Both the position numbers and the translations under genes were made by a program. Below, in pieces: positions 29,874 to 45,307 of a stretch of DNA of 64,000 bases (the first letter of the stretch is position 1; each line of letters begins with the position of its first letter). The notes under the pieces are model-generated. The model made no database searches and had not been told where the DNA came from. It saw only the letters and a program-made list of their open reading frames with translations. The DNA is from Nitrosomonas mobilis (GTDB lineage: Bacteria; Pseudomonadota; Gammaproteobacteria; Burkholderiales; Nitrosomonadaceae): the NCBI RefSeq assembly GCF_900103035.1, contig NZ_FMWO01000048.1, positions 186,001-250,000 on the forward strand, in the 5' to 3' direction.

Positions 29874-30335
29874 TTATGAACGAGTCCCAGACAAGGTAGC
29901 TATCTGTTCTTTCAGCTGTGCAATTTCTATTTCGGCATTATGCTGACCAGTCACGTCATATTGAACTCCCAGGAAATAAAGCAATCTTCCGTCAGTATCG
30001 AACAGCGGAGTGATGTTCAGGTGGTTATAAAACAATTCTCCGTTTTTACGGTAATTGCGCAGTACGATTTTAACTGGTTGTTTATTTTTAATCGCTTCTT
30101 TCAAGCGCAGGCGCTCGGGCTGGTCATGATCGGTACCCTGTAAAAAGCGGCAATTGCGTCCAAGCGTTTCTGCCTGGGAGTAACCGGTAATAATTTCGAA
30201 AGCCTTGTTGGCATATACCAGCGGCAGATCTTCCTGATCGGGATCGGCCAGAGTAATGCCATTGACACATGAATCCAGGATTTTTGACAATACCTGTGGA
30301 ATGAGCCCTGGGTCTTTTTCAACGATAAAATCCAT
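29874..30335 (-). CDS. Short LOV blue-light photoreceptor protein
   Basis: A 153-residue PAS-fold protein that matches the LOV signature GxNCRFLQ exactly (GRNCRFLQG, 59-67). Cys62 is the residue that forms the flavin C4a adduct on blue-light excitation. Downstream segments NHLNITPL near 104-111 and FLGVQYDVT near 121-129 complete the flavin pocket. A short helix with coiled-coil character follows (IEIAQLKEQIATL). There is no output domain, so it resembles the short LOV proteins that signal by dimer changes. The ATG at 30335 has GGAG about nine bases upstream and is preferred over an ATG nine codons earlier. Confidence 0.88.
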   Translation of the reverse strand: MDFIVEKDPGLIPQVLSKILDSCVNGITLADPDQEDLPLVYANKAFEIITGYSQAETLGRNCRFLQGTDHDQPERLRLKEAIKNKQPVKIVLRNYRKNGELFYNHLNITPLFDTDGRLLYFLGVQYDVTGQHNAEIEIAQLKEQIATLSGTRS

Positions 30336-30397
30336 TATTTTTCTCCAATATTGTACCTGCAACCGTCGTGTGACAATTTCAAGTGGGTGTTCTAAAA

Positions 30398-33738: not shown

Positions 33739-34173
33739 ATGAAGCATGTTTGCGTGTTGCCGCGTATGGCTAGTATACGTGGATTTACTTTGCTGGAATT
33801 ACTGGTAGTAATGGTCATTATTGGCCTGCTGGCTGCCTATGTCGGTCCCAAATATTTTTCACAGGTGGGTAAATCGGAAGTCAAAATGGCGCAGGCACAG
33901 ATTGATTCTCTTGAAAAAGCCCTGCACCAATATCGGTTGGATGTCGGGCATTACCCCAGCACCGAACAGGGATTGAATGCGTTGCTCGCCAATCCTGGAA
34001 ATGAGCCGAGGTGGCAGGGGCCCTATTTGAGCAAGCGTTTGCCGGCGGATCCGTGGAACAATCCTTATCAATATAAATATCCGGGCGAGCGAGGCGATTT
34101 TGATCTACTTTCATTCGGTAAGGACGGTCAGCCGGGTGGGACAGGTGAAGATGCAGATATCACCAATTGGTAA
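33739..34173 (+). CDS. GspG-like major pseudopilin
   Basis: A 144-residue type II secretion-like pseudopilin. The prepilin peptidase site is RG|FTLLELLVVMVIIGLLAAY with Glu at +5 of the mature protein. The C-terminal part carries the GspG pattern of HYPSTEQGLNAL, LPADPWNNPYQYKYPG and a DGQPGGTGEDADITNW end, which is the calcium-binding loop of GspG. It is the first gene of the cluster. An in-frame start 17 codons upstream is possible but would give an unusually long leader. Confidence 0.85.
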   Translation: MKHVCVLPRMASIRGFTLLELLVVMVIIGLLAAYVGPKYFSQVGKSEVKMAQAQIDSLEKALHQYRLDVGHYPSTEQGLNALLANPGNEPRWQGPYLSKRLPADPWNNPYQYKYPGERGDFDLLSFGKDGQPGGTGEDADITNW

Positions 34174-34198
34174 CCGGTAAATTGCATCACCAATAATC

Positions 34199-35386
34199 AT
34201 GCGGTATCAGGTCAAGGCGTTGATGGCCAAACAGGGAACCGTATCGCTGGAGCTGGAGGCGAGCAGTGAAGCTGAGGTTCGTGAGAAAATCAGTGCCCAG
34301 GGTGGAATGGTGCTCAGTGTGCGGCGAAATTTCTCAGAACTATTGCCGAGTTTCTCCAATACCCGTTTCCCCCTGCCCAATTTTTCACAGGAACTGCTCG
34401 CGTTACTGAACGCGGGGCTCAGTCTGGTAGAAAGTATCGAGACGCTGGCTGAAAAAGAAGAAGATAACGCGGTACGTGAACTGTTGCATAATCTGCTGAC
34501 ACGCCTATACGAAGGCATGACATTTTCACGTGTACTGGAATTTCACCCACAGGCATTTCCGGCGTTGTATGTTGCCACGGTACGGGCAAGCGAGCGCACG
34601 GGTGATCTTGCCGAAGCGTTGACACGTTACCTGGTTTATCAATCGCAAATGGACCTGGTGCGCAAAAAACTGGTGGGGGCGTCAATTTACCCCGTGCTGC
34701 TGTTGGTACTGGGTTTGTTGGTGGCAGTTTTCTTGCTGGTATTTGTCGTACCTAAATTCAGCGCAATCTACGAAGACATCGGCACGGATTTACCATGGAT
34801 GTCGATGCTGCTGATTCAGTGGGGGCATCTTGTGCAGGAAAATGGCTGGGTGCTGGCGGTTATTGCCACGGGAGTGCTGACTGTGATTGCTTATACCTTC
34901 TCCCAGCCACAGATTCGGGCACAGATGCTACAGGCGTTATGGCGAATTCCTGCTGTTGGTGAAAGAATGCGGGTATATCAACTTGCACGCTTCTACAAGA
35001 CGCTGGGCATGCTGCTTCGTGGCGGCATTCCGGTTACGCAGGCGCTGGAAATGGTCAGTAATCTGTTACAACCGCATTTTCGCCCCAGGGTAAAGATTGC
35101 CGCGACCCTGATTCGGGAAGGGAGAACCATTTCCGAGGCTATGCAAAGCGCCGAATTAACGACTGCGGTTGGCAGCCGCATGTTGCGTGTCGGAGAGCGC
35201 ACCGGCATGATGGGCGACATGATGGAGCGCATCGGCAATTTTCATGATGAAGAGATTAACCGATGGGTCGAGTGGACAACCAAGCTGATCGAGCCGCTGC
35301 TGATGGCGGTGATTGGAATCGTTATCGGAGGCATCATTATTCTTATGTATCTTCCCATTTTTGAGCTGGCGGGCAGTATTAATTGA
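34199..35386 (+). CDS. GspF/PilC-type inner membrane platform protein
   Basis: A 395-residue protein of the T2SSF family, with two homologous cytoplasmic domains. Transmembrane helices lie near 158-185, 205-225 and 362-385. The LLNAGLSLVESIETLAEKE segment near 68-86 and its repeat LLRGGIPVTQALEMV near 272 are typical. It anchors the ATPase and the pseudopilus at the inner membrane. Its last codon overlaps the start of the ATPase gene. Confidence 0.9.
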   Translation: MRYQVKALMAKQGTVSLELEASSEAEVREKISAQGGMVLSVRRNFSELLPSFSNTRFPLPNFSQELLALLNAGLSLVESIETLAEKEEDNAVRELLHNLLTRLYEGMTFSRVLEFHPQAFPALYVATVRASERTGDLAEALTRYLVYQSQMDLVRKKLVGASIYPVLLLVLGLLVAVFLLVFVVPKFSAIYEDIGTDLPWMSMLLIQWGHLVQENGWVLAVIATGVLTVIAYTFSQPQIRAQMLQALWRIPAVGERMRVYQLARFYKTLGMLLRGGIPVTQALEMVSNLLQPHFRPRVKIAATLIREGRTISEAMQSAELTTAVGSRMLRVGERTGMMGDMMERIGNFHDEEINRWVEWTTKLIEPLLMAVIGIVIGGIIILMYLPIFELAGSIN

Positions 35387-37074
35387 ATCAGACAGACACC
35401 ATTTTCTCAACCGCTCCGGCAATTGACCTGCAGCAGATTACGCTGGCACGCGAGCAATCCGCCGCTCGTGGAACTTCGTTGATCAAGGCGCTGGAAGAAG
35501 AATTTTCCGGTACACCAGAAGAACTGACGGCTGCACTTGGTAAGATGTTGTATATGCCGGTGCTGACCATGCAGGATTTGCACGCGGCAACAACGGCTTT
35601 TGACCTGTTACCTTTTGCCCAGTCGGTCAAGCAGGAATGTGTGTTGTTACAAAAGGATTCGACTTACTTACTGGCGGTCAGTGATCCGTTTCGTCCGGGT
35701 TTGCGCGCATGGGCAGAAGAATTCATCCCGGTGAACGCATTGTGGTATCTGGTACATCCGGCCGATCTGGCTGCATTTTTTGCCCAGCAGGAAGCCAGCA
35801 TGCGCGCGATGGACAATGTACTGCCCGCTTCACAGGAAAACCTGCTGCATGCCGGTATCGAGGAGCTGTCGCTCAAGACTATTCATGAAGGGACCAGTCA
35901 GGTCGTACGGCTGGTGCAGTCCACCTTATATGATGCACACAAATCCCAAGCCAGTGACATTCATCTTGAAACTGCGCCAGGTGCACTGTCGATCAAATAT
36001 CGCATCGATGGCGTTTTGTCAACGATTGGCGTGATGCAGGGCGCGGATCTTGCTGAACAGGTCATTTCGCGTATCAAGGTCATGTCCGATCTCGATATTG
36101 CCGAACGCCGCATTCCCCAGGATGGTCGTTTCAAGGTCAAAATTCAGGGGCGGGAGATTGATTTTCGCGTCTCTATCATGCCCAGTATTTTTGGTGAAGA
36201 TGCTGTGCTGCGGATACTTGACCGGCAAGCATTGACCGATCATGTTGATGGTTTGACGCTCAATCAACTTGGTTTTGACAGTGCGGCCATTGCCAGCATT
36301 CGCCGCCTCAGTTCCGAGCCTTATGGCATGCTGCTGGTGACAGGACCGACCGGCAGCGGCAAGACGACTTCTCTCTATGCCGCTATTTCGGAAGTCAATC
36401 ATGGTCATGACAAGATCATCACTATTGAGGATCCGATTGAATATCAATTGCCGGGTGTGCTGCAGATTCCCGTCAATGAAAAAAAGGGGCTGACGTTCGC
36501 GCGTGGCTTGCGTTCCATCCTGCGGCATGATCCCGATAAGATCATGGTCGGCGAAATCCGGGATGCCGAGACAGCCCAGATTGCCATTCAGGCGGCGCTC
36601 ACCGGTCATCTGGTATTTACTACGGTGCATGCCAATAATGTGTTTGACGTCATTGGCCGCTTTGCACACATGGGCGTGGATCCTTACAGCTTTGTTTCGG
36701 CGCTGAATGGCATCGTTGCGCAACGCCTGGTGCGGGTGTTGTGTTCGCATTGTACGGTGGCGGAGCAGCCTGATGATGTAATGATCGAGGTTTCCGGCAT
36801 ATCGCTGGAAGAAGCGAAACAGTATAACTTCCAGGTATCGAAAGGCTGTGGACAGTGCCGAGGGAGCGGCTATCGGGGACGTAATGCTATTGCGGAAATT
36901 TTACTGCTGAACGACGAAATCCGGGAGCTGATCGTTGCCCAGGCGCCGATTCGCCGCATCAAAGAGGCAGCACGCAATAACGGTACGCACTTCTTGCGTG
37001 AGGCAGCCCTGAATATGGTCAAATCCGGGCAAACGAGCTTACAGGAGGCGAACCGTGTCACGATTGTGGCGTGA
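35383..37074 (+). CDS. GspE/PilB-type secretion ATPase
   Basis: A 563-residue AAA-like ATPase that drives pseudopilus assembly. The N1E domain occupies the first 150 residues. The P-loop GPTGSGKTT lies near 320-328, the Asp box ITIEDPIEYQLPGV near 346, Walker B KIMVGEIRD near 386, and the His box LVFTTVHANN near 412. The tetracysteine zinc motif is CSHC near 455 and CGQC near 488. The start is TTG, overlapping the gspF stop in TTGA. Tetracysteine-bearing ATPases belong to type II secretion and type IV pilus systems. Confidence 0.92.
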   Translation: MNQTDTIFSTAPAIDLQQITLAREQSAARGTSLIKALEEEFSGTPEELTAALGKMLYMPVLTMQDLHAATTAFDLLPFAQSVKQECVLLQKDSTYLLAVSDPFRPGLRAWAEEFIPVNALWYLVHPADLAAFFAQQEASMRAMDNVLPASQENLLHAGIEELSLKTIHEGTSQVVRLVQSTLYDAHKSQASDIHLETAPGALSIKYRIDGVLSTIGVMQGADLAEQVISRIKVMSDLDIAERRIPQDGRFKVKIQGREIDFRVSIMPSIFGEDAVLRILDRQALTDHVDGLTLNQLGFDSAAIASIRRLSSEPYGMLLVTGPTGSGKTTSLYAAISEVNHGHDKIITIEDPIEYQLPGVLQIPVNEKKGLTFARGLRSILRHDPDKIMVGEIRDAETAQIAIQAALTGHLVFTTVHANNVFDVIGRFAHMGVDPYSFVSALNGIVAQRLVRVLCSHCTVAEQPDDVMIEVSGISLEEAKQYNFQVSKGCGQCRGSGYRGRNAIAEILLLNDEIRELIVAQAPIRRIKEAARNNGTHFLREAALNMVKSGQTSLQEANRVTIVA

Positions 37075-37918
37075 TCAATTAGCGGTTTTTCTGGCGCCCG
37101 ATCAGGTGATTGTCGCCGGGCAGTCACGTGGCTTCAAACCGTTTCCCTTGTTCCGGCAGCGCGTTATGTGCCCACAATTGGCTGATCCGACTACAAAGCC
37201 ATTGCCATGGGAATTACCGTTGCATCAGCTGGAACAGCTTATGGAACTCCTCAATACGCAGATCAAGGCTGGTAGCGACTTACGGATAACGCTGGCAGAT
37301 GATTTTGTGCGTTACGGAGTGATTGCGCCACAATCAGCTTTGGCGAGTCCTGACGAACTGATAACTTATGCCAGTTTTCAGATGCGCGAGACTTATGGGG
37401 ATCGTGTCGAAGAATGGGCACTGAGCATAAGTAGTTGGGATCCGCTGGATGGGGGCCTATGCGCTGGAGTTTCACTGGGGTTACTGGCGGCACTTGAGCA
37501 TTTTGCCGTACGCCACGAATTGAAACTTAAATATACCGAACCCTATCTAGCTGCAGCACTTGATTATTGGTCCAGGAAGCTGTCCAGCGAGCAGCTGTGG
37601 TTTGTGCTGATCGAAAACAATCGTTTCTGTCTGGCATCTATTCTGGCTGGACGTTGGCGGGGTATCCGCAATCAGCGGATTGTCGACAATCTTGAGCAGG
37701 AGCTGTTGTCCGCACTGGAACAGGAAGCAATCCTGTCTGGTCAGCCGGCTGATACTCGACCGCAACGGGTACAGGTATTTGCCCCTGCTACGATCGAATG
37801 GCAGCTACCGCAAGTACAGGGATGGTATTTTGAACGACTGATACAATCAGAACAGCCTGTTCCCGCCCAGTTCCCATTTACAGCATTGCCAGAAAGTCAA
37901 GTGAGCGCCTATGCGTAG
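37055..37918 (+). CDS. PilM/GspL-like cytoplasmic platform protein
   Basis: A 287-residue protein without a signal or membrane helix. It starts with GTG after a strong AGGAGG, overlapping the ATPase gene by 20 bases. The position, and segments LAVFLAPDQVIVAG near 9-22 and LDYWSRKLSSEQLWFVLIENNRF near 168-190, suggest an actin-like PilM or GspL cytoplasmic domain. Similarity by eye is weak, so this call rests mainly on gene order: PilM-, PilN-, PilO- and PilP-like genes follow one another. Confidence 0.55.
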   Translation: MSRLWRDQLAVFLAPDQVIVAGQSRGFKPFPLFRQRVMCPQLADPTTKPLPWELPLHQLEQLMELLNTQIKAGSDLRITLADDFVRYGVIAPQSALASPDELITYASFQMRETYGDRVEEWALSISSWDPLDGGLCAGVSLGLLAALEHFAVRHELKLKYTEPYLAAALDYWSRKLSSEQLWFVLIENNRFCLASILAGRWRGIRNQRIVDNLEQELLSALEQEAILSGQPADTRPQRVQVFAPATIEWQLPQVQGWYFERLIQSEQPVPAQFPFTALPESQVSAYA

Positions 37919-38447
37919 CCTTAAATTAACTTTCCCTTATCGAAAGCGACCAATAGGCGTGGTCGACTATCTGCTGCTGTTGTTAGGAATACTCGCACTG
38001 ATCGTGGTTTTCTTCCAACTTAAAATCACCATGGGCAAAATGGCTAAATGGGAAACGCGCGAAGCACAATTGCTCCAACAGCAAAAACAGCGTATCTCTC
38101 CCAGAGCTGCATCGACACGTGTCACTCAGGTCACCCAGCAGGAGGTGAAACAGGCGAGGGAAATTATCAGCTGGCTCAATCTACCGTGGGAACCGGTGTT
38201 TGATTCTCTGGAGCTGGCAGCCAGCAAAGATGTCTCATTACTGTCGCTACAACCTAACGCTGCCAATCGTGCCATTCGCATTTCAGGTGAGGCAAAGAAC
38301 CTGCAAGGGCTGGTTGAGTATGTTGAAGCGCTGGAACGGGAACCAGTTTTTAAAAATGCTCATCTGGTCAATTACCGCATTAGGCAGGATCACCCACAGC
38401 GCCCGGTCAATTTCCTGATTGCACTTACCTGGTTGGACTCCATTTAG
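37911..38447 (+). CDS. PilN/GspL-C-like inner membrane protein
   Basis: A 178-residue bitopic protein with a single transmembrane helix at about 20-41 (LLLLLGILALIVVFFQL), a coiled coil to about 80, and a C-terminal alpha/beta part with SISGEAKNLQGL-like features (IRISGEAKNLQGLVEYVEAL, near 121-140) typical of PilN-like ferredoxin folds. It overlaps the previous gene by eight bases. Confidence 0.65.
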   Translation: MRSLKLTFPYRKRPIGVVDYLLLLLGILALIVVFFQLKITMGKMAKWETREAQLLQQQKQRISPRAASTRVTQVTQQEVKQAREIISWLNLPWEPVFDSLELAASKDVSLLSLQPNAANRAIRISGEAKNLQGLVEYVEALEREPVFKNAHLVNYRIRQDHPQRPVNFLIALTWLDSI

Positions 38448-38449
38448 GC

Positions 38450-39004
38450 ATGGCGAAATTCAATTTCAGTCATTCACTGATCAGACTGCGCTGGCGTCTT
38501 GCGTGTTTGAGTAATGTCGGTAAGTTGGGTTTGGGTATGCTGGTGCTGGCGCTGGTAGTCTTATTCGCAGCGGTCCTGCCGCAGGAGCAAACCAAAAATA
38601 CATTGAAAAAGAAAGTAAAAACAGCGGAAAGTATACGAGCTGAGTTTCCGGAGCAGATCCAATTGAATGATGACCAGGCGCTGCAGGTGTTCTATGATTT
38701 TTTCCCACGCAGCGATTCTTCTCCATTCTGGATCAACGAACTGGACAAGATTGCCAAAAACCGGGGAGTTGAAGTCAGCCGGGGAGATTACCGTCTGGTG
38801 CTGGAAAAAGAGGCAAAGCTAGCGCGTTACGAAATCCAGCTGCCAGTGCGGGGCAGTTATCCCCAACTCCGGGCCTTCATTGCCGATGCACTGCAGGCAG
38901 TGCCTGCCCTGGCATTGGCGAGTGTTGTCATTAAACGTGAGAACATCCAGGCTGGCAGAATCGATGCCAGCCTGGGGATGTATCTATATTTGAATGATTA
39001 TTAA
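38450..39004 (+). CDS. PilO/GspM-like inner membrane protein
   Basis: A 184-residue bitopic protein with a transmembrane helix at about 25-45 (LGLGMLVLALVVLFAAVLP), a coiled coil, and a ferredoxin-like C-terminal domain (RYEIQLPVRGSYPQLRAFI near 125-143) typical of PilO and GspM. It starts two bases after the previous stop. It probably heterodimerises with the PilN-like protein. Confidence 0.65.
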   Translation: MAKFNFSHSLIRLRWRLACLSNVGKLGLGMLVLALVVLFAAVLPQEQTKNTLKKKVKTAESIRAEFPEQIQLNDDQALQVFYDFFPRSDSSPFWINELDKIAKNRGVEVSRGDYRLVLEKEAKLARYEIQLPVRGSYPQLRAFIADALQAVPALALASVVIKRENIQAGRIDASLGMYLYLNDY

Positions 39005-39066
39005 GTTTTTCTCTGTTTACCCTGTGCCGCTGCACGGCCTCGTTTTCTGCCATCCGGAACATAAGC

Positions 39067-39660
39067 ATGACTAACCCGCTAGTGCGTAAAATTGTCCTTT
39101 GGAGTGCGCTCGCTGCTACCTTGCTAGCAGTCATCGCGATAGACGAGGAACCGGAGGAATCGCGAGTAGATACCGCAGCAGAAGCGGTATTACCCACCCG
39201 CAATGTGGACAGGCGTACACGCGCTTCTGATAACCGGTCTAACCAGACACTTCCGGTTGATCAACTGGGGAAACGCACTTTCAAGGCAGAAGCGGATGAT
39301 ATTTTTGCTGTGAATTCCTGGCAGCCCCCACCCGTAAATGCAAGAAAAAAGGCAGGGGGGGATGAAGAGGATGAAGATGATCCCTTTTTTGTCGCCAGAA
39401 GAGCGAGTAAACCGCTTCCTGCACCCACACCTGTCGCGCCCCCATTAGCAATTAAATATCTGGGCCGGGTTAGCGATGGCCGTGTCACACGAGTATTTCT
39501 GGTACATCAGGAAAAGAATTATGCCACCAAAGTCGGAGAGCGGATCGACGGCCTATACCGTTTGGACAGTATCCGTGATGACGTCCTCGAATTGACTTAT
39601 CTGCCATTGGGAATCAAACAAAAGCTTGTCATTAATGAAAAAACGTCTGGAAAAACCTGA
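39067..39660 (+). CDS. PilP/GspC-like inner membrane protein
   Basis: A 197-residue protein with a membrane helix at about 7-22. A proline- and acid-rich linker follows (DEEDEDDPF near 99-107). The C-terminal beta-sandwich resembles the HR domain of GspC or PilP (IKYLGRVSDGRVTRVFLVHQ near 128-147, and GERIDGLYRLDSI near 157-169). This domain normally contacts the N0 domain of the secretin. Its stop overlaps the secretin start by one base. Confidence 0.65.
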   Translation: MTNPLVRKIVLWSALAATLLAVIAIDEEPEESRVDTAAEAVLPTRNVDRRTRASDNRSNQTLPVDQLGKRTFKAEADDIFAVNSWQPPPVNARKKAGGDEEDEDDPFFVARRASKPLPAPTPVAPPLAIKYLGRVSDGRVTRVFLVHQEKNYATKVGERIDGLYRLDSIRDDVLELTYLPLGIKQKLVINEKTSGKT

Positions 39661-41942
39661 TGAATGCTAGTAAACCCCTGTTGGTGCTTTTATTGCTTAT
39701 CTGGATGGCAGGTTGTGCGAGTTACACCACGAAGAACCCTGCTTTTTTACAGGGCAAGCAATTGATTACAGAGGGGCAGTTCGAAGCCGGTCTGGGTAAA
39801 TTGCAACAAGCCGCTGATGAAGAACCGGAAAATATCGAGATTCGCGTGGCCTTGGTGCGGGAACTGGATTCAGTGGCCGGACAATTGCTGCTCCAGGCAG
39901 ACAATGAACTGCTGACTGGTAATATCGACGCAGCCGAGCAGGCTTATCTGCGGGTTCTGGGAATTGCGCCGAATAATGAACGCGCCATTGCCGGACTGGA
40001 AGCGGCCGCAATCGACAGAAAGCATAACGGACTCGTCAAGCAGGCTAAAGAATATATGGCGAACGATCAGATCGAGGCGGCAGAAAAAATCATCCGCGGT
40101 GTTCTTGCCGAAAATCCGGCACAGGCTGACGCCAGGCAGCTGGTCAATGAACTGAGCGAACGTATCTCACGTGCTGAAATGTCGCAATTGTCACTGGTCT
40201 CGGCTTTCCGTCAGCCGATTACCATGGAATTTCGCGATGCACCGCTAAAAACCATTTTTGAACTAATTTCGCGTACCGCTGGTATCAATTTTATTTTTGA
40301 CCGCACTGTACAGCAGGAAGCCAAAACCTCAATTTTTGTACGTGATAATCCGATCGAGGATGTATTAAAGCTGATTCTGCTGACGAATCAGCTGGCGTAT
40401 AAGGTACTCAACGAAAATTCCCTGTTGATTTATCCGGATACGCCCGCTAAGCAAAAGGATTATCAGGAACTGGTCGTGCGCAGCTTTCACATCAATAATA
40501 CCGACGTCAAGCAGATGGTCGCGATGGTGCGCGGACTGGTCAAGGCACGAGATATCTATGTTAATGAACGCCTTAACCTGTTTATCATGCGCGACACACT
40601 GGAAATGATCCGGCTGGTGGAGCGGCTGGTGACGATCAACGATTTTCCCGATCCGGAAGTGATGCTGGAAGTTGAGGTGCTAGAAATCAACCGTAATAAC
40701 GCCTTGAAGCTTGGACCAGACATGCCAACACAAACCAGTTTTAGTTTTTTACCGGGAGTGGGTACGGCTGCCCCTGTCCTTGGTGCCGATGGGCTTCTTA
40801 AACTGACTCAAACCAGTATCGATGGGTTGCGTAATTTCTCTATTGCCAACCAAGTGTTGGTTGAATTCAGGAAAACTCTGACAGCTAATGACATATTGGC
40901 AAATCCGCGCATCCGCGTGAAGAGTCGGGAGAAAGCTAAAATTATGATCGGTGATAAAATTCCTATTTTCTCTTCAAACGCAACTTCAACCGGAGTTGTA
41001 TCGCAAAATGTCACTTTTCTTGACGTTGGGCTTAAGTTGGAGGTTGAGCCCGTTATCTCACCGAACAGCGAGGTTTCCATAAAAATTTTACTGGAAGTAA
41101 GTACGCTCGGAGCAAGAGAAACATCTGGCACTACTACCGCTTTCAGGATCGGCACTCGATCAGCTGAAACATTGCTTTTCTCGCGCGATGGCGAAACCCA
41201 GGTACTGGCAGGGCTGATTCAGGATCAGGATAGGAGAGGGCTTAGCGGGATAGCTGGCCTGGTAGATATACCGGTGCTGGGCAGATTGTTTGCCAGTCAA
41301 AATCTGACTCGCGATAAAACAGAGATAGTTCTGCTGATCACGCCGCGTATTGTGCGTAATGTGATTCAACCCAGCAATTTCGAGAGCGAGTTTCATTCCG
41401 GTACTGCCAGTGCGGCTGGGAATATTCCGGTCAACATTCGCAAAACCGCACCGCAATCGTTGAGTTTGCTGCCCAGCGGAGGCGCAGGTGGGCTGGGAGG
41501 GAGCAATGTATTCGGACAGGCATTGCGCTCTGGATCACGAGATAATGAGGAAACAGTCAATCCTTTTGAAGCTGCTGCAGCGCAGGCGCGCTCGCCGGTG
41601 CCGACACTTAACCTGCAAGCACCAGCCAGTGTGGCAATGGGACGGGAATTTACCGCCACGGTACGCCTGATCACGCAAAACACCCAGTTAACCGGCGAAG
41701 TTGATCTGGGTTATGACCAGAGCGCGCTTGAGCTGATGGATGGCGCCGAAAACTCGGGGTCGCGCACGCTTAAATTCGGTCGCGAACAGCCGACGGGTAT
41801 GACCAGTATTTTGCGTTTCAAAGTCATTGGGGCTAATACTGGCACAACCACTATTTCAGTTGATGGCGTGCGGGTACAGGATGAGAAGGGTGAAGCTGTC
41901 GAGATTCAGGCTCCTCCCGTAGCGAGTATAACGTTGCAGTAA
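39660..41942 (+). CDS. Lipoprotein secretin with TPR repeats and a C-terminal cohesin-like domain
   Basis: A 760-residue outer membrane pore protein. Residues 1-19 form a lipoprotein signal with WMAGC at the lipobox. TPR-like repeats cover about 30-155, an N0/STN domain about 185-255, and a single N1 domain about 265-335. The secretin core extends to about 565, with the typical VLAGLIQDQDR and GLVDIPVLGRLFAS segments. After a Gly-rich linker, residues 648-760 resemble a cohesin domain (PF00963-like beta-sandwich, TGEVDLGYDQSALEL near 680-694). Type II secretins carry N0 to N3; this one has only N0 and N1, closer to PilQ. The TPR and cohesin parts suggest protein-protein docking at both ends. 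Confidence 0.85.
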   Translation: MNASKPLLVLLLLIWMAGCASYTTKNPAFLQGKQLITEGQFEAGLGKLQQAADEEPENIEIRVALVRELDSVAGQLLLQADNELLTGNIDAAEQAYLRVLGIAPNNERAIAGLEAAAIDRKHNGLVKQAKEYMANDQIEAAEKIIRGVLAENPAQADARQLVNELSERISRAEMSQLSLVSAFRQPITMEFRDAPLKTIFELISRTAGINFIFDRTVQQEAKTSIFVRDNPIEDVLKLILLTNQLAYKVLNENSLLIYPDTPAKQKDYQELVVRSFHINNTDVKQMVAMVRGLVKARDIYVNERLNLFIMRDTLEMIRLVERLVTINDFPDPEVMLEVEVLEINRNNALKLGPDMPTQTSFSFLPGVGTAAPVLGADGLLKLTQTSIDGLRNFSIANQVLVEFRKTLTANDILANPRIRVKSREKAKIMIGDKIPIFSSNATSTGVVSQNVTFLDVGLKLEVEPVISPNSEVSIKILLEVSTLGARETSGTTTAFRIGTRSAETLLFSRDGETQVLAGLIQDQDRRGLSGIAGLVDIPVLGRLFASQNLTRDKTEIVLLITPRIVRNVIQPSNFESEFHSGTASAAGNIPVNIRKTAPQSLSLLPSGGAGGLGGSNVFGQALRSGSRDNEETVNPFEAAAAQARSPVPTLNLQAPASVAMGREFTATVRLITQNTQLTGEVDLGYDQSALELMDGAENSGSRTLKFGREQPTGMTSILRFKVIGANTGTTTISVDGVRVQDEKGEAVEIQAPPVASITLQ

Positions 41943-41971
41943 CATGGGAATGATAGTTTCTAAACGAGTTG

Positions 41972-42454
41972 ATGTTGCCGAAATCTAATAGCCGTGGTTT
42001 CACATTAATTGAGTTGATGATCGTGGTGGCCATCATGGCTATTTTAGCGTCTGCAGCCATGCCTTTGCAGGAGATGATGGTCAAACGGGAAAAGGAACAG
42101 GCGCTGCGGACTGCATTACGACAGATCCGTACCGCGATTGATGCCTATAAGTTGGCGGCTGACGAAGGCAGGGTAGAGAAAAAGGCGGATGAAACGGGTT
42201 ATCCCCGCAAGCTCGAAGATTTAGAGGCAGGAGTGCCGGATATCAAAACACCTGACAAGAAAAATATTTTTTTTATGCGTCGACTGCCACGTGATCCAAT
42301 GTTTGCCGATTCCGAAGTACCGGCGGCAGAAACCTGGGGCAAGCGCAGCTATGAAAGCCCGCCGGATAACCCCGATGAAGGAGACGACATATTTGATGTT
42401 TACTCTTTGTCGGAACAAAAGGGTTTGAACGGTATTCCCTATAACCAATGGTAG
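41972..42454 (+). CDS. GspG-like pseudopilin
   Basis: A 160-residue pseudopilin with leader MLPKSNSRG followed by FTLIELMIVVAIMAIL, including the conserved Glu at +5. The C-terminal part is acidic (NPDEGDDIFDVYS near 139-151), as in calcium-binding pseudopilins. A TTG immediately upstream is in frame, but the ATG is preferred. It starts 30 bases after the secretin stop. Confidence 0.85.
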   Translation: MLPKSNSRGFTLIELMIVVAIMAILASAAMPLQEMMVKREKEQALRTALRQIRTAIDAYKLAADEGRVEKKADETGYPRKLEDLEAGVPDIKTPDKKNIFFMRRLPRDPMFADSEVPAAETWGKRSYESPPDNPDEGDDIFDVYSLSEQKGLNGIPYNQW

Positions 42455-42846
42455 CTATGCTCAAGCGTTTAGCATTTCCTGTTGCACGAGGTTTTACTCT
42501 GATTGAGCTACTGGTGGTGATGGCAATCATCGCTACCTTATTGAGCATTGTGGCGCCTCGTTATTTCACATCGGTAGATCGTGCTAAGGAGACGGTCCTC
42601 AAGCAGAATCTCAGCATTATGCGCGATGCGATTGATAAATACTTTGCGGATACTGGCAAATACCCACAGGATCTGCAGCAGTTGGTTGATGAGCGTTATA
42701 TTCGCGCCATTCCAGTGGATCCCGTCACGGAGCAGCCGGTGTGGGCAGAAATACCGCCGCCTGATGAGGAAATGGAAGGAGTGTATGACGTCCGCACTAC
42801 TTCAGACAAGCAGGCGCTTGATGGAACTTTTTACGAGAAGTGGTAG
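42448..42846 (+). CDS. GspG-like pseudopilin
   Basis: A 132-residue pseudopilin with ARG|FTLIELLVVMAIIATLLS at the N-terminus (Glu at +5). It ends YEKW, with a DVRTTSDKQALDGT pattern like the preceding pseudopilin. The start codon overlaps the stop of the previous gene, so translation is coupled. A second ATG three codons later is possible. Confidence 0.85.
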   Translation: MVAMLKRLAFPVARGFTLIELLVVMAIIATLLSIVAPRYFTSVDRAKETVLKQNLSIMRDAIDKYFADTGKYPQDLQQLVDERYIRAIPVDPVTEQPVWAEIPPPDEEMEGVYDVRTTSDKQALDGTFYEKW

Positions 42847-42847
42847 G

Positions 42848-43453
42848 GTGATAAGCAGCTACCGGGAACAAGGGTACGTCTATATATGGACATTGTTTGC
42901 CACCCTGCTGGCAGGCGTGATGCTGGCGGCTGCCGGAGAGGTCTGGCAGACCACTTCCCAGCGGGAGAAAGAATTGGAGCTACTTTTTATCGGTGATCAG
43001 TTTCGTCTGGCCATCACGTCCTATCATGATGCTGCGCAGGTAACGACCGCCACCAGCCGTTACCCGGAAACACTGGAGCAGCTTCTTGAAGATAAGCGGG
43101 GACCCAAGCCACTGCGGCATTTGCGGAAAATTTTTTTTGATCCGATGACCAACAGTTTTGAATGGGGATTGATCGAACAGGAAAATGGAGGAATTACAGG
43201 AGTGTATAGTCTGGCTACAACGCAACCAATAAAACGAGCAGGATTTCCGGAGGATTATACCAAATTTGAAAAAGCCAAAAGCTATCAGGACTGGCGGTTT
43301 GTACATGCCGGAGCAGTAGCGAAAGATGCCGGTCGCGCGCAAGAAAAGACCCAGGAAAGGCCTGCTAATCCTTTTGAGCAACTTGGCACTCAACCCGCCG
43401 ATAATCCATTCTCTCAATCCCCACCAGCAGAGAATATCAATCCATTCCAATGA
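42848..43453 (+). CDS. Minor pseudopilin-like protein without the +5 glutamate
   Basis: A 201-residue protein that begins SSYREQGYVYIWTLFATLL. The hydrophobic helix follows an EQG|YVYIW site where the usual +5 glutamate is absent (Trp), as seen in GspK-type minor pseudopilins. A globular part contains RYPETLEQLLEDKRGPKPLR near 70-89. The tail is Pro-, Asn- and Gln-rich (NPFEQ, NPFSQ, NINPFQ). The GTG at 42848 directly follows the previous stop; an ATG at 42821 inside the preceding gene is an alternative. Confidence 0.7.
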   Translation: MISSYREQGYVYIWTLFATLLAGVMLAAAGEVWQTTSQREKELELLFIGDQFRLAITSYHDAAQVTTATSRYPETLEQLLEDKRGPKPLRHLRKIFFDPMTNSFEWGLIEQENGGITGVYSLATTQPIKRAGFPEDYTKFEKAKSYQDWRFVHAGAVAKDAGRAQEKTQERPANPFEQLGTQPADNPFSQSPPAENINPFQ

Positions 43454-43570
43454 TAGCTCCGTAAACCTGTTGGGATAATTTCGATATGCCGTAAAATAAG
43501 AACCAAGCGGATATAGGTCGGGTCTCAAACAGGTATTGAGCACTACTAAGGTTGAAATAAGGTTAACTAG

Positions 43571-45307
43571 ATGAACATTAAAATAATGATGTTGTTGCTT
43601 GGTCTGATAGGATGCGCGCCGTTGCCCAAGGTTGACAGCCAGGCTGGATCCAGTTCAGCAATCGAACACAATCCAGGCGATTTGACCAATGCGATTGCGA
43701 GAAGCAGTCAGCATGCTGACTCGAGTCTGACTGAGGAAATATTGTTTGATTTTTTGCTGGCGGAAACGGCACTACAGCGGGATCGACTGGATATTTCTGC
43801 AGAAAGCTACGCAAGGTTGGCGCACATCACCCGGGATGCCAGAATTGCTGAGCGGGCAGCCGACATTGCCCTGCGTACCCGGCAACCAGCACTTGCGCAA
43901 GAGGCAATTGATTTGTGGGTAACGCTTGAGCCACAGTCGCAAGCGGCGCATCAGGCTGCGGTTATTTTATTTATTGATGTGGGTCAATTAAACAGAGCGC
44001 GTCCTCATCTCGAAAAGTTGCTGGCTTCGCAACCGGATGCAGTGGGTAAATCCTTTATGCAAATCAACAAGCTGCTGTCGCGTCATCCTGACAAACAAGA
44101 AGCGCTGACACTGGTTCGGCAGTTGGCGCGATCCTACGATAAACTGCCAGAAGCACATTTTGCCGTCTCTCAGGCCGCCTGGGCGGCAGATCAGCCGAAG
44201 CTGGCATCCGATGCCATGCAAAAGGCGCTCAAGTTGCGGCCAGAATGGGAAATGGCGGCAATTCATCAAGGCCGCATTCTGCAAAAACTCGATAACCCGG
44301 CTGCAATAAATTTTTATAAGCGTTACCTTGATCAGTATTCGAAAGCTAATGATCTGCGGATTGCTTATATCCGTGCGTTAATGGAAAACAAAAAATTCAG
44401 TCTGGCCCGTGAGCAATTTCACCGGCTGGAAAGCGAAAATGCTTCCAATCCGGATATAGCACTGGCTATCGGTTTGCTCTCCGCTGAACTGGATGACTAC
44501 GGCAATGCAGAACGCTATTTCAAAAAAGCGCTTGAACTGGGATTTGAAGACACTAATTCCGTCAACTTCAATTTGGGACGTATTTATGAAACATCGCAGC
44601 GTAACCGCGAAGCAATGGATTCATATCGTAGAGTAACCGGTGGGGAGCGCTATATTCCGGCACAAATACGCTATGCTTTTCTGCTGGCTGGCCAGGATGG
44701 ACTGACTCCTGCCAGACAGCACCTGCAAACGGTTCGTTATCTCGATGAAGAACAACGTATTCAGTTGATTCTATCCGAGGCACAGCTATTACGGGAGCAG
44801 GGCGCTAACCCTGAAGCATATGATTTACTCAGCACACAATTAGATGAAACTCCCCAACAACCCGAGATACTTTATGATCGAGCGCTGATTGCCGAGAAAC
44901 TTGGCAAACTGGATATTCTGGAACAGGATTTACGTAAACTGATCGAATTAAAACCGGATAGTGCACATGCTTATAATGCCTTGGGTTACAGTTTGGCAGA
45001 TCGTGGTTTGCGTTTGCCGGAAGCCCTCTCATTAATTCAGAAGGCCATCGAGTTATCTCCTGATGATCCCTATATCATGGATAGTCTGGGTTGGGCTTAT
45101 TACCGTATGGGCAATCTGAAAAAAGGGTTGGATTATTTGAATACTGCTTTTGCCGCACGACCGGATCCGGAAATTGCCGCCCATTTTGGTGAGCTGCTAT
45201 GGATGAATGGCCGGACTGAAGAAGCAAAGCAAATATGGCAATCAGCACTGGATAGTCATCCCGGAAATGAAGTATTACAGGACACCATGAAACGCTTCAT
45301 ACCCTGA
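43571..45307 (+). CDS. TPR-repeat lipoprotein of the secretion cluster
   Basis: A 578-residue protein with a lipoprotein signal (LLGLIGCAP, lipidated Cys about 15). The rest is tetratricopeptide repeats from about 45 to 560, such as AHAYNALGYSLADRG near 465 and DPYIMDSLGWAYYRMGNL near 500. It lies 118 bp after the last pseudopilin on the same strand. It could serve as a pilotin-like or assembly factor for the secretin, but it is also similar to general TPR lipoproteins. The link is by context. Confidence 0.75.
   Translation: MNIKIMMLLLGLIGCAPLPKVDSQAGSSSAIEHNPGDLTNAIARSSQHADSSLTEEILFDFLLAETALQRDRLDISAESYARLAHITRDARIAERAADIALRTRQPALAQEAIDLWVTLEPQSQAAHQAAVILFIDVGQLNRARPHLEKLLASQPDAVGKSFMQINKLLSRHPDKQEALTLVRQLARSYDKLPEAHFAVSQAAWAADQPKLASDAMQKALKLRPEWEMAAIHQGRILQKLDNPAAINFYKRYLDQYSKANDLRIAYIRALMENKKFSLAREQFHRLESENASNPDIALAIGLLSAELDDYGNAERYFKKALELGFEDTNSVNFNLGRIYETSQRNREAMDSYRRVTGGERYIPAQIRYAFLLAGQDGLTPARQHLQTVRYLDEEQRIQLILSEAQLLREQGANPEAYDLLSTQLDETPQQPEILYDRALIAEKLGKLDILEQDLRKLIELKPDSAHAYNALGYSLADRGLRLPEALSLIQKAIELSPDDPYIMDSLGWAYYRMGNLKKGLDYLNTAFAARPDPEIAAHFGELLWMNGRTEEAKQIWQSALDSHPGNEVLQDTMKRFIP

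Follow-up and report, generated by a model that had tools for sequence, protein, structure and literature searches.

Gene content of the locus

We analysed a 64,000-nt stretch of the Nitrosomonas mobilis genome, hereafter the window (contig NZ_FMWO01000048.1, positions 186,001 to 250,000; G000:C104:186001-250000 in our numbering; genome, 3.08 Mb), and within it a candidate protein export locus of eleven successive plus-strand genes (33739-43453; all coordinates are window positions). The locus encodes relatives of GspG, GspF and GspE of the type II secretion system (T2SS), PilM-, PilN- and PilO-like proteins of the kind found in the type IVa pilus (T4aP), a GspC-HR/PilP-like protein, a secretin of lipoprotein type that has two N-domains, and three further pseudopilin-like proteins. 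All eleven frames are open.

The first gene (33739..34173) encodes a GspG-type major pseudopilin of 144 aa that scores 183.7 bits with TIGR01710 (cut-off, 88.85) and carries a calcium-type motif, G.DG..GG.G..AD, close to its C-terminus. It is followed, after a gap of 25 nt, by genes for a GspF/PilC-type inner-membrane platform protein (34199..35386; PF00482, 178 bits) and a GspE/PilB-type assembly ATPase with the tetracysteine motif C..C...C..C (35383..37074; PF00437, 427 bits), which overlap by 4 nt. The ATPase gene overlaps by 20 nt the gene for a free-standing protein with a predicted actin fold that resembles PilM and the cytoplasmic domain of GspL (37055..37918), and this in turn overlaps by 8 nt the gene for a PilN-like platform protein (37911..38447; PF05137, 27.4 bits; cut-off, 22.8). 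A PilO/GspM-b-like platform protein is encoded 2 nt downstream (38450..39004); its matches to PF04350 (19.9 bits; cut-off, 22) and PF10741 (14.5 bits; cut-off, 21.7) are both below cut-off, and its position is kept in other loci. A further gap of 62 nt separates it from the gene for a putative GspC-HR/PilP-like clamp protein (39067..39660), assigned from the predicted fold of positions 39088-39657 and from alignment, which overlaps the secretin gene (39660..41942) by 1 nt.

The secretin matches PF00263, PF07660, PF03958 and TPR_19, and comprises a lipobox-like MAGC, N-terminal TPRs, one STN domain (N0), one Secretin_N domain (N1), the barrel and a C-terminal Ig/cohesin-like domain; no AMIN domain was matched. 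The C-terminal domain of the window secretin gave no cohesin match (best match, Big_3_5, E 0.034), and cohesin matches in the secretins of relatives were found in L117 (3.6e-10), L120 (2.9e-10), L009 (1.1e-4, under the cut-off) and L018 (0.05). Recruitment of cargo by a cohesin-dockerin pair was considered and rejected, since the window domain lacks a cohesin match and no dockerin (PF00404) was found in the genome.

The three minor pseudopilin genes begin 26 nt downstream of the secretin gene. Minor pseudopilins 1 (41969..42454; PF07963, 41.0 bits) and 2 (42448..42846; PF07963, 33.3 bits), whose genes overlap by 7 nt, both have the canonical GFTLIEL with Glu5. Minor pseudopilin 3, which begins at 42821 (ATG) or 42848 (GTG) and ends at 43453, has a pilin-like hydrophobic N-terminus without Glu5; it has no Pfam match and is assigned from its position and local profiles. 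Loss of Glu5 is typical of GspK, the tip subunit of the T2SS, and we regard minor pseudopilin 3 as a GspK-like tip candidate. Among the genes of the locus there is no retraction ATPase. The one prepilin peptidase found in the genome lies away from the locus, on contig C12, and two secretins were found in the genome, one of PilQ type and the one at the locus.

Predicted folds of the PilM-like and P-like proteins

Neither the PilM-like nor the PilP-like (P-like) protein matched a Pfam or NCBIfam family, and their folds are therefore predictions. The model of the PilM-like protein has an actin-like fold (pLDDT 86.7, pTM 0.86) that best matches PilM (Z 17.3 with 3jc8_Ma and 16.8 with 2ych_A), followed by a Bacteroides protein of unknown function (Z 16.1), cyto-EpsL (15.7) and FtsA (14.5). 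The model of the P-like protein consists of an N-terminal transmembrane-like helix, a disordered linker and an HR-type beta-domain (pLDDT near 97); neither a PDZ domain nor a lipobox was seen in it. When compared with known structures, the beta-domain gave TMt values of 0.80 with the HR domain of GspC (3oss_C) and 0.76 with that of PulC (6hcg), and of 0.45 (2ivw), 0.61 (4av2) and 0.52-0.65 (2y4y) with PilP domains. A structure search with this domain returned no match at E 0.001 or better. Taken together, families, folds and domain matches agree with the hybrid anatomy that the original prediction had proposed, in which PilM/N/O-like proteins are combined with a GspG-type subunit and a two-N-domain, lipoprotein-type secretin.

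Recurrence of the locus

A scan for related secretins in one genome per species (84,980 species), using exact-peptide seeds that favour close relatives, yielded 66 related loci (67 with the window), and the closest relatives of the window secretin are from Nitrosomonas. By local profiles, the order pp-F-E-M-N-O-P-Q-pp-pp-pp (pp, pseudopilin; Q, secretin) is present in 52 of the 67 loci, including the window. Nine of the remaining loci are cut by contig ends. Of the other six, two carry an additional frame, one has a permuted order, one is missing G-F-E beside the rest and in two a single gene went unrecognised. Three genomes yielded second copies (L110-L112), of which one is permuted; L113 and the permuted L063 are one locus. 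Permuted orders, such as O-P-Q-pp-pp-pp-(G)-F-E-M-N, were seen in L063/L113, L112, L118 and L120; GspG comes last in L118.

Individual features of the proteins recur as well. The calcium-type motif is present in 43 of the 57 loci with the upstream pseudopilin read, the C4 motif in 63 of 66 gspE-labelled ORFs (open reading frames), and a lipobox-like pattern in 58 of the 67 secretins read, by a loose pattern and with starts not curated. Using a crude pattern that at times picks the wrong site, we read Glu5 in minor pseudopilin 1 of 63/64 loci and in minor pseudopilin 2 of 55/64, and read no Glu at position 5 of minor pseudopilin 3 in 61/64.

A local profile found the P-like gene, at E 0.001 or better, in 103 genomes out of 125 for the family, 141 out of 399 sampled for the order and 11 out of 369 for the class, the last count including the genome studied here and eight matches at E 1e-30 or better. 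One match in the same genus (G468:C1:1298722-1299252) has an in-frame TAA inside the P-like gene. We conclude that the locus is real, complete-looking and widespread; the expectation that it recurs in betaproteobacteria is borne out by the conserved order.

Comparison with T2SS, type IVa and MSH pili

The locus shares GspG, GspF, GspE, the GspC HR-domain fold and minor pseudopilins with the canonical T2SS, but differs from it in several respects. There is no GspC family match, and the GspC-HR-like fold is carried by the P protein; the actin-like domain, which canonical GspL fuses to a transmembrane and periplasmic part, is encoded separately from the PilN-like protein; the secretin has N0 and N1 only, whereas canonical GspD has N0-N3; and there are three minor pseudopilins rather than four. 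With T2SS equivalog models, GspF scored 256.5 bits (cut-off, 424), GspE 489.8 (630.25) and the secretin 148.5 (TIGR02517; 351.35). Thus, GspF, GspE and the secretin fall below the equivalog cut-offs, the secretin has two N-domains and the actin-like protein is free-standing, so the locus is not the standard complete T2SS that would have spoken against a distinct system. The final T2SS model of PMC6668835 requires GspC; that paper, as far as available, does not mention Geobacter in its main text and foresees few further families in the superfamily.

With the T4aP the locus shares separate PilM-, PilN- and PilO-like proteins (PilN over and PilO below cut-off). Unlike the T4aP, it has a GspG major subunit, no retraction ATPase and no AMIN match in the secretin, and the counterpart of PilP, which is a lipoprotein in the T4aP, is a transmembrane-anchored HR protein. 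The secretin scored 150.5 bits with the PilQ model TIGR02515 (cut-off, 284.35) and 79.4 bits with the MshL model TIGR02519 (cut-off, 250.2), and the ATPase 485.7 bits with the PilB model. Judged by its sequences, the locus is not a mannose-sensitive haemagglutinin (MSH) pilus.

Trees of F, E and the secretin were built with reference loci from 14 genomes carrying the system, from the genome studied here and from E. coli K-12. Reference types were assigned by gene order, and ten secretins were checked by NCBIfam: three GspD, one PilQ and three of five MshL secretins scored over cut-off (the other two MshL just under), and the one Tad-type secretin did not. The trees included 28-29 of the 67 loci and four second-copy rows, with fewer in later trees and 12 in the nearest-relative tests. 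All Tad sequences, short frames (including one T2SS GspF) and, from the E tree and the extended-relative tree, L114 were dropped; L080, L114, L090, lone ATPases, HofB/C, L063 and L113 were dropped from the nearest-relative tests. In all three trees one branch (SH-aLRT 100 each) divides the system from T2SS, a T2SS variant, T4aP and MSH, and the five MshL-like reference secretins form a group apart from the locus secretins; the tree program warned of long branches joining. With class-level and plasmid relatives added, the system is still one group, with support of 100 (F) and 91 (secretin), and L119 (an Aliiroseovarius plasmid) and L181 (G253:C30) pair up as its more distant sister. An A24 prepilin peptidase is encoded beside the F gene in L119, and L181 adjoins a 1341-aa RHS protein.

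The nearest known relative varies between trees: F joins T2SS (support 94), E joins T4aP (93) and the secretin joins T4aP (67). No completed test rejected an alternative placement: sisterhood with T4aP and with MSH was not rejected for F, nor with T2SS and with MSH for E, and two of the secretin tests are unfinished.

Canonical gsp loci were obtained from 7 of the 14 genomes examined. Other ATPases were also seen. In the F and E trees, and with long-branch warnings, a further pseudopilin-F-E cluster of N. europaea (L080, G001:C35) falls with T2SS variants; the genome of the window showed no equivalent of its ATPase. Besides the locus, this genome has two PilT/PilU-size ATPases and one GspE-like ATPase of about 800 aa, and no separate PilB-size one; frames close to the latter in size (790-823 aa, that of the GspE-like ATPase) recur in 7 of 14 related genomes. 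G000:C60:16142-17383 (L087) and its homologues belong to this set of ATPases.

Relationship to Xcm and OxpG/Pul

Two systems outside Nitrosomonas resemble the locus. The Xcm system of Pseudomonas putida GB-1 is also a Gsp-related exporter, and its cargo is an Mn-oxidising factor. In a 2003 study by de Vrind et al. (Mol Microbiol 47:993), it was reportedly found to have XcpT-, XcpS-, XcpR- and XcpQ-like genes and a pseudopilin-like XcmX, and to be without XcpP/Y/Z. Its layout is said to be split, with xcmT1-xcmS apart from xcmX-T2-T3 and the latter beside csg-like genes, whereas the genes here form one block. We take PP3483 to be the Xcm ATPase of P. putida. The second, the atypical type II system OxpG/Pul of Geobacter (Mehta et al. 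2006), shares with the locus a GspG-like PulG and the further pseudopilins OxpG and TklG, with gene names pulGPQF; it differs in its cargo, the multicopper oxidase OmpB; no multicopper oxidase frame above 492 aa was found in the present genome.

Published sources, each available in part, connect these systems with Nitrosomonas. The Xcm cluster of P. putida GB-1/KT2440 is cited as a second T2SS in the available text of PMC4509608, and the Geobacter Pul system, whose pseudopilins are PulG, OxpG and TklG, is needed for OmpB secretion according to that of PMC3543383. The table of PMC1569441, in its available part, lists NE1609 of N. europaea under the label 'type II secretion system protein E', with best matches including P. 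fluorescens, PP3483 of P. putida (6.1e-159) and RSp0148 of Ralstonia solanacearum (4.3e-149); GSU1783 of Geobacter follows at 3.1e-132, and after Pelobacter the values drop to 1.2e-91. GSU1783 is named as the type II ATPase PulE in the available text of PMC8557921.

The machine had been suggested to be undescribed, which is probably wrong, since Xcm and OxpG/Pul are published and the available table links NE1609 to GSU1783 and PP3483. Most likely this kind of machine has already been described in manganese- and iron-handling bacteria, and the locus is a further member of it, not a new machine. In the literature searched we found no description of the Nitrosomonas locus beyond the NE1609 label.

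Flanking genes and candidate cargo

In this organism we recognised no gene for a cargo next to the locus, and we therefore take the cargo to be encoded elsewhere. Giant exoproteins often lie next to the system in relatives outside Nitrosomonas, and not at Nitrosomonas loci. Some of the flanks of non-Nitrosomonas loci encode GH64 glucanases with F5/8 C domains and an LTD-nuclease with RTX repeats; other exoproteins in these flanks are CarboxypepD-repeat giants of up to 3652 aa, RHS proteins and an M4 peptidase. Hydrophobic N-termini were read for many of these exoproteins.

We compared unselected flanks (36/41 non-Nitrosomonas and 22/25 Nitrosomonas-like loci had enough flank) with 20 control regions, positioned manually in 12 of the genomes; ORFs were called mechanically and include antisense frames (one in L054, on the GH64 gene of L137). 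ORFs of at least 1000 aa numbered 24 in 390 kb of non-Nitrosomonas flank and 6 in 240 kb of control (p 0.028). In another, partly selected set of flanks, ORFs at 2000 aa occurred in 7/20 regions and in 0/20 controls, a biased comparison in that several regions were chosen for a giant ORF. By a crude pattern, RHS/YD ORFs occurred at 3/41 unselected non-Nitrosomonas loci, 0/25 Nitrosomonas-like loci and 0/56 control and reference loci (p 0.07), and in 5/36 further, partly selected regions; an association with the loci is suggested only. L120 is flanked by pairs of FG-GAP and RHS genes. Frame listings for L174-L178, relatives from the gammaproteobacterial class whose flanks were not family-scanned, showed no conspicuous giant exoprotein gene.

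Neighbouring genes in the window

After a gap of 117 nt the locus is followed by a plus-strand gene for a TPR lipoprotein (43571..45307; TPRs confirmed by family scan). The original prediction had counted this gene into a single unit with the others. The eleven genes and their kept order bear out such a unit; the TPR lipoprotein gene does not belong with them, being present in 8/67 loci and linked to lolB elsewhere. The distance between its homologue and lolB is within about 0.1-0.2 kb in G003, G004, G005 and G006 and 2.3 kb in G002; G000 and G001 have the gene at the secretion locus and lolB on another contig; and G009 gave neither a clear homologue nor a lolB match. We considered the TPR lipoprotein as a pilotin of the system and rejected this, as the homologue is at or near lolB in 5 of the 8 genomes searched. 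On the minus strand, a short PAS protein (PAS_9; 29877-30362) contains GRNCRFLQG, a sequence similar to the LOV photoreceptor signature.

Function of the locus

The best reading is probably that the locus, complete except for a prepilin peptidase, is an exporter of folded periplasmic proteins, and we consider protein secretion of the Xcm/OxpG type, by a T2SS-like mechanism, to be likely. This is supported by the families and folds, the order kept in 52 of 67 loci, the grouping in three trees, the T2SS-type major pseudopilin, the published BLAST table and the exoproteins encoded in flanks. For assembly, direction of transport and cargo we infer the following. With PilM, PilN and PilO as the platform, GspE acting on GspF would polymerise GspG into a pseudopilus. 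Priming would fall to the three minor pseudopilins, with the Glu5-less third at the tip, like GspK, and the pseudopilins would be processed by the prepilin peptidase on C12. The HR domain of the P protein would dock onto the N0 domain of the secretin, which may use its own lipid anchor and TPRs to reach the outer membrane, and which would there release folded proteins exported by Sec or Tat.

An alternative is that the locus is a degenerate gsp locus, that is, a canonical T2SS with lost or diverged parts. GspG, GspE and GspF do score highest with T2SS equivalog models, and one F tree joins the system to T2SS and its variant. However, the scores of GspF, GspE and the secretin are well below the equivalog cut-offs, the system forms its own fully supported group in three trees, and the arrangement is kept across genera, half of the genomes examined having canonical gsp loci as well; we therefore regard degeneration as unlikely. 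Rather less probable still is a short surface pilus, T4aP- or MSH-like, that serves attachment and not protein secretion. The PilM-, PilN- and PilO-like platform, the nearly equal PilB and GspE scores of the ATPase and the joining of E and secretin to T4aP would all fit such a pilus, but the major subunit is a GspG pseudopilin with a calcium-type motif, no retraction ATPase is among the locus genes, the MshL score is far below cut-off, and the named relatives are reported as exporters in the available parts of the sources. That the locus is a non-functional relic in Nitrosomonas would agree with the lack of a recognised adjacent cargo and of a large multicopper oxidase; it is nevertheless very improbable, given eleven open frames and a P-like gene retained in most genomes of the family, with an in-frame stop in one listed match.

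Several observations weigh against secretion of the Xcm/OxpG type. An OmpB/MofA-like cargo had to be rejected: a search with one family, PF07731, found no multicopper oxidase of OmpB/MofA size in the genome, the largest frame being 492 aa. The 18 scanned neighbours comprise eight of exoprotein type, eight ordinary ones (DnaE, Cas3, a LuxR-type protein, an MCP, two histidine kinases, a UvrA-like protein and a Zn peptidase), one sub-threshold match and one antisense frame. ORFs of at least 700 aa show no enrichment even in non-Nitrosomonas flanks, which have 40 in 390 kb where the controls have 19 in 240 kb (p 0.21), and giant ORFs of at least 1000 aa are not enriched in Nitrosomonas-like flanks (5 in 252 kb). 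The tie to Xcm and OxpG rests on the published BLAST table, the inferred mapping of NE1609 to a gene of the N. europaea locus L016 and the presumed identity of PP3483 as the Xcm ATPase, and a search of the literature found no secretion data for any Nitrosomonas locus.

A broader proposal, which we offer tentatively and hold to be doubtful, is that the Xcm/OxpG type is a distinct lineage of exporters derived from type IV filaments, which stands apart from the canonical T2SS and which about a third of the sampled genomes of the order possess. It would be specialised in exporting modular exoproteins of very large size (GH64/F5-8C glucanases, CarboxypepD-repeat giants and RHS/YD-repeat proteins), and its TPR-lipoprotein secretin would be self-piloting; where the secretin has a cohesin-like domain, that domain could recruit cargo or a partner in the outer membrane.

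If secretion of the Xcm/OxpG type is correct, the locus would name a candidate secretin-based protein exporter of an ammonia oxidiser, the only other secretin found there being of PilQ type, and a testable assignment would take the place of an undescribed machine. A poorly studied type of exporter would then be widespread (141/399 genomes of the order), and it may export some of the giant exoproteins.

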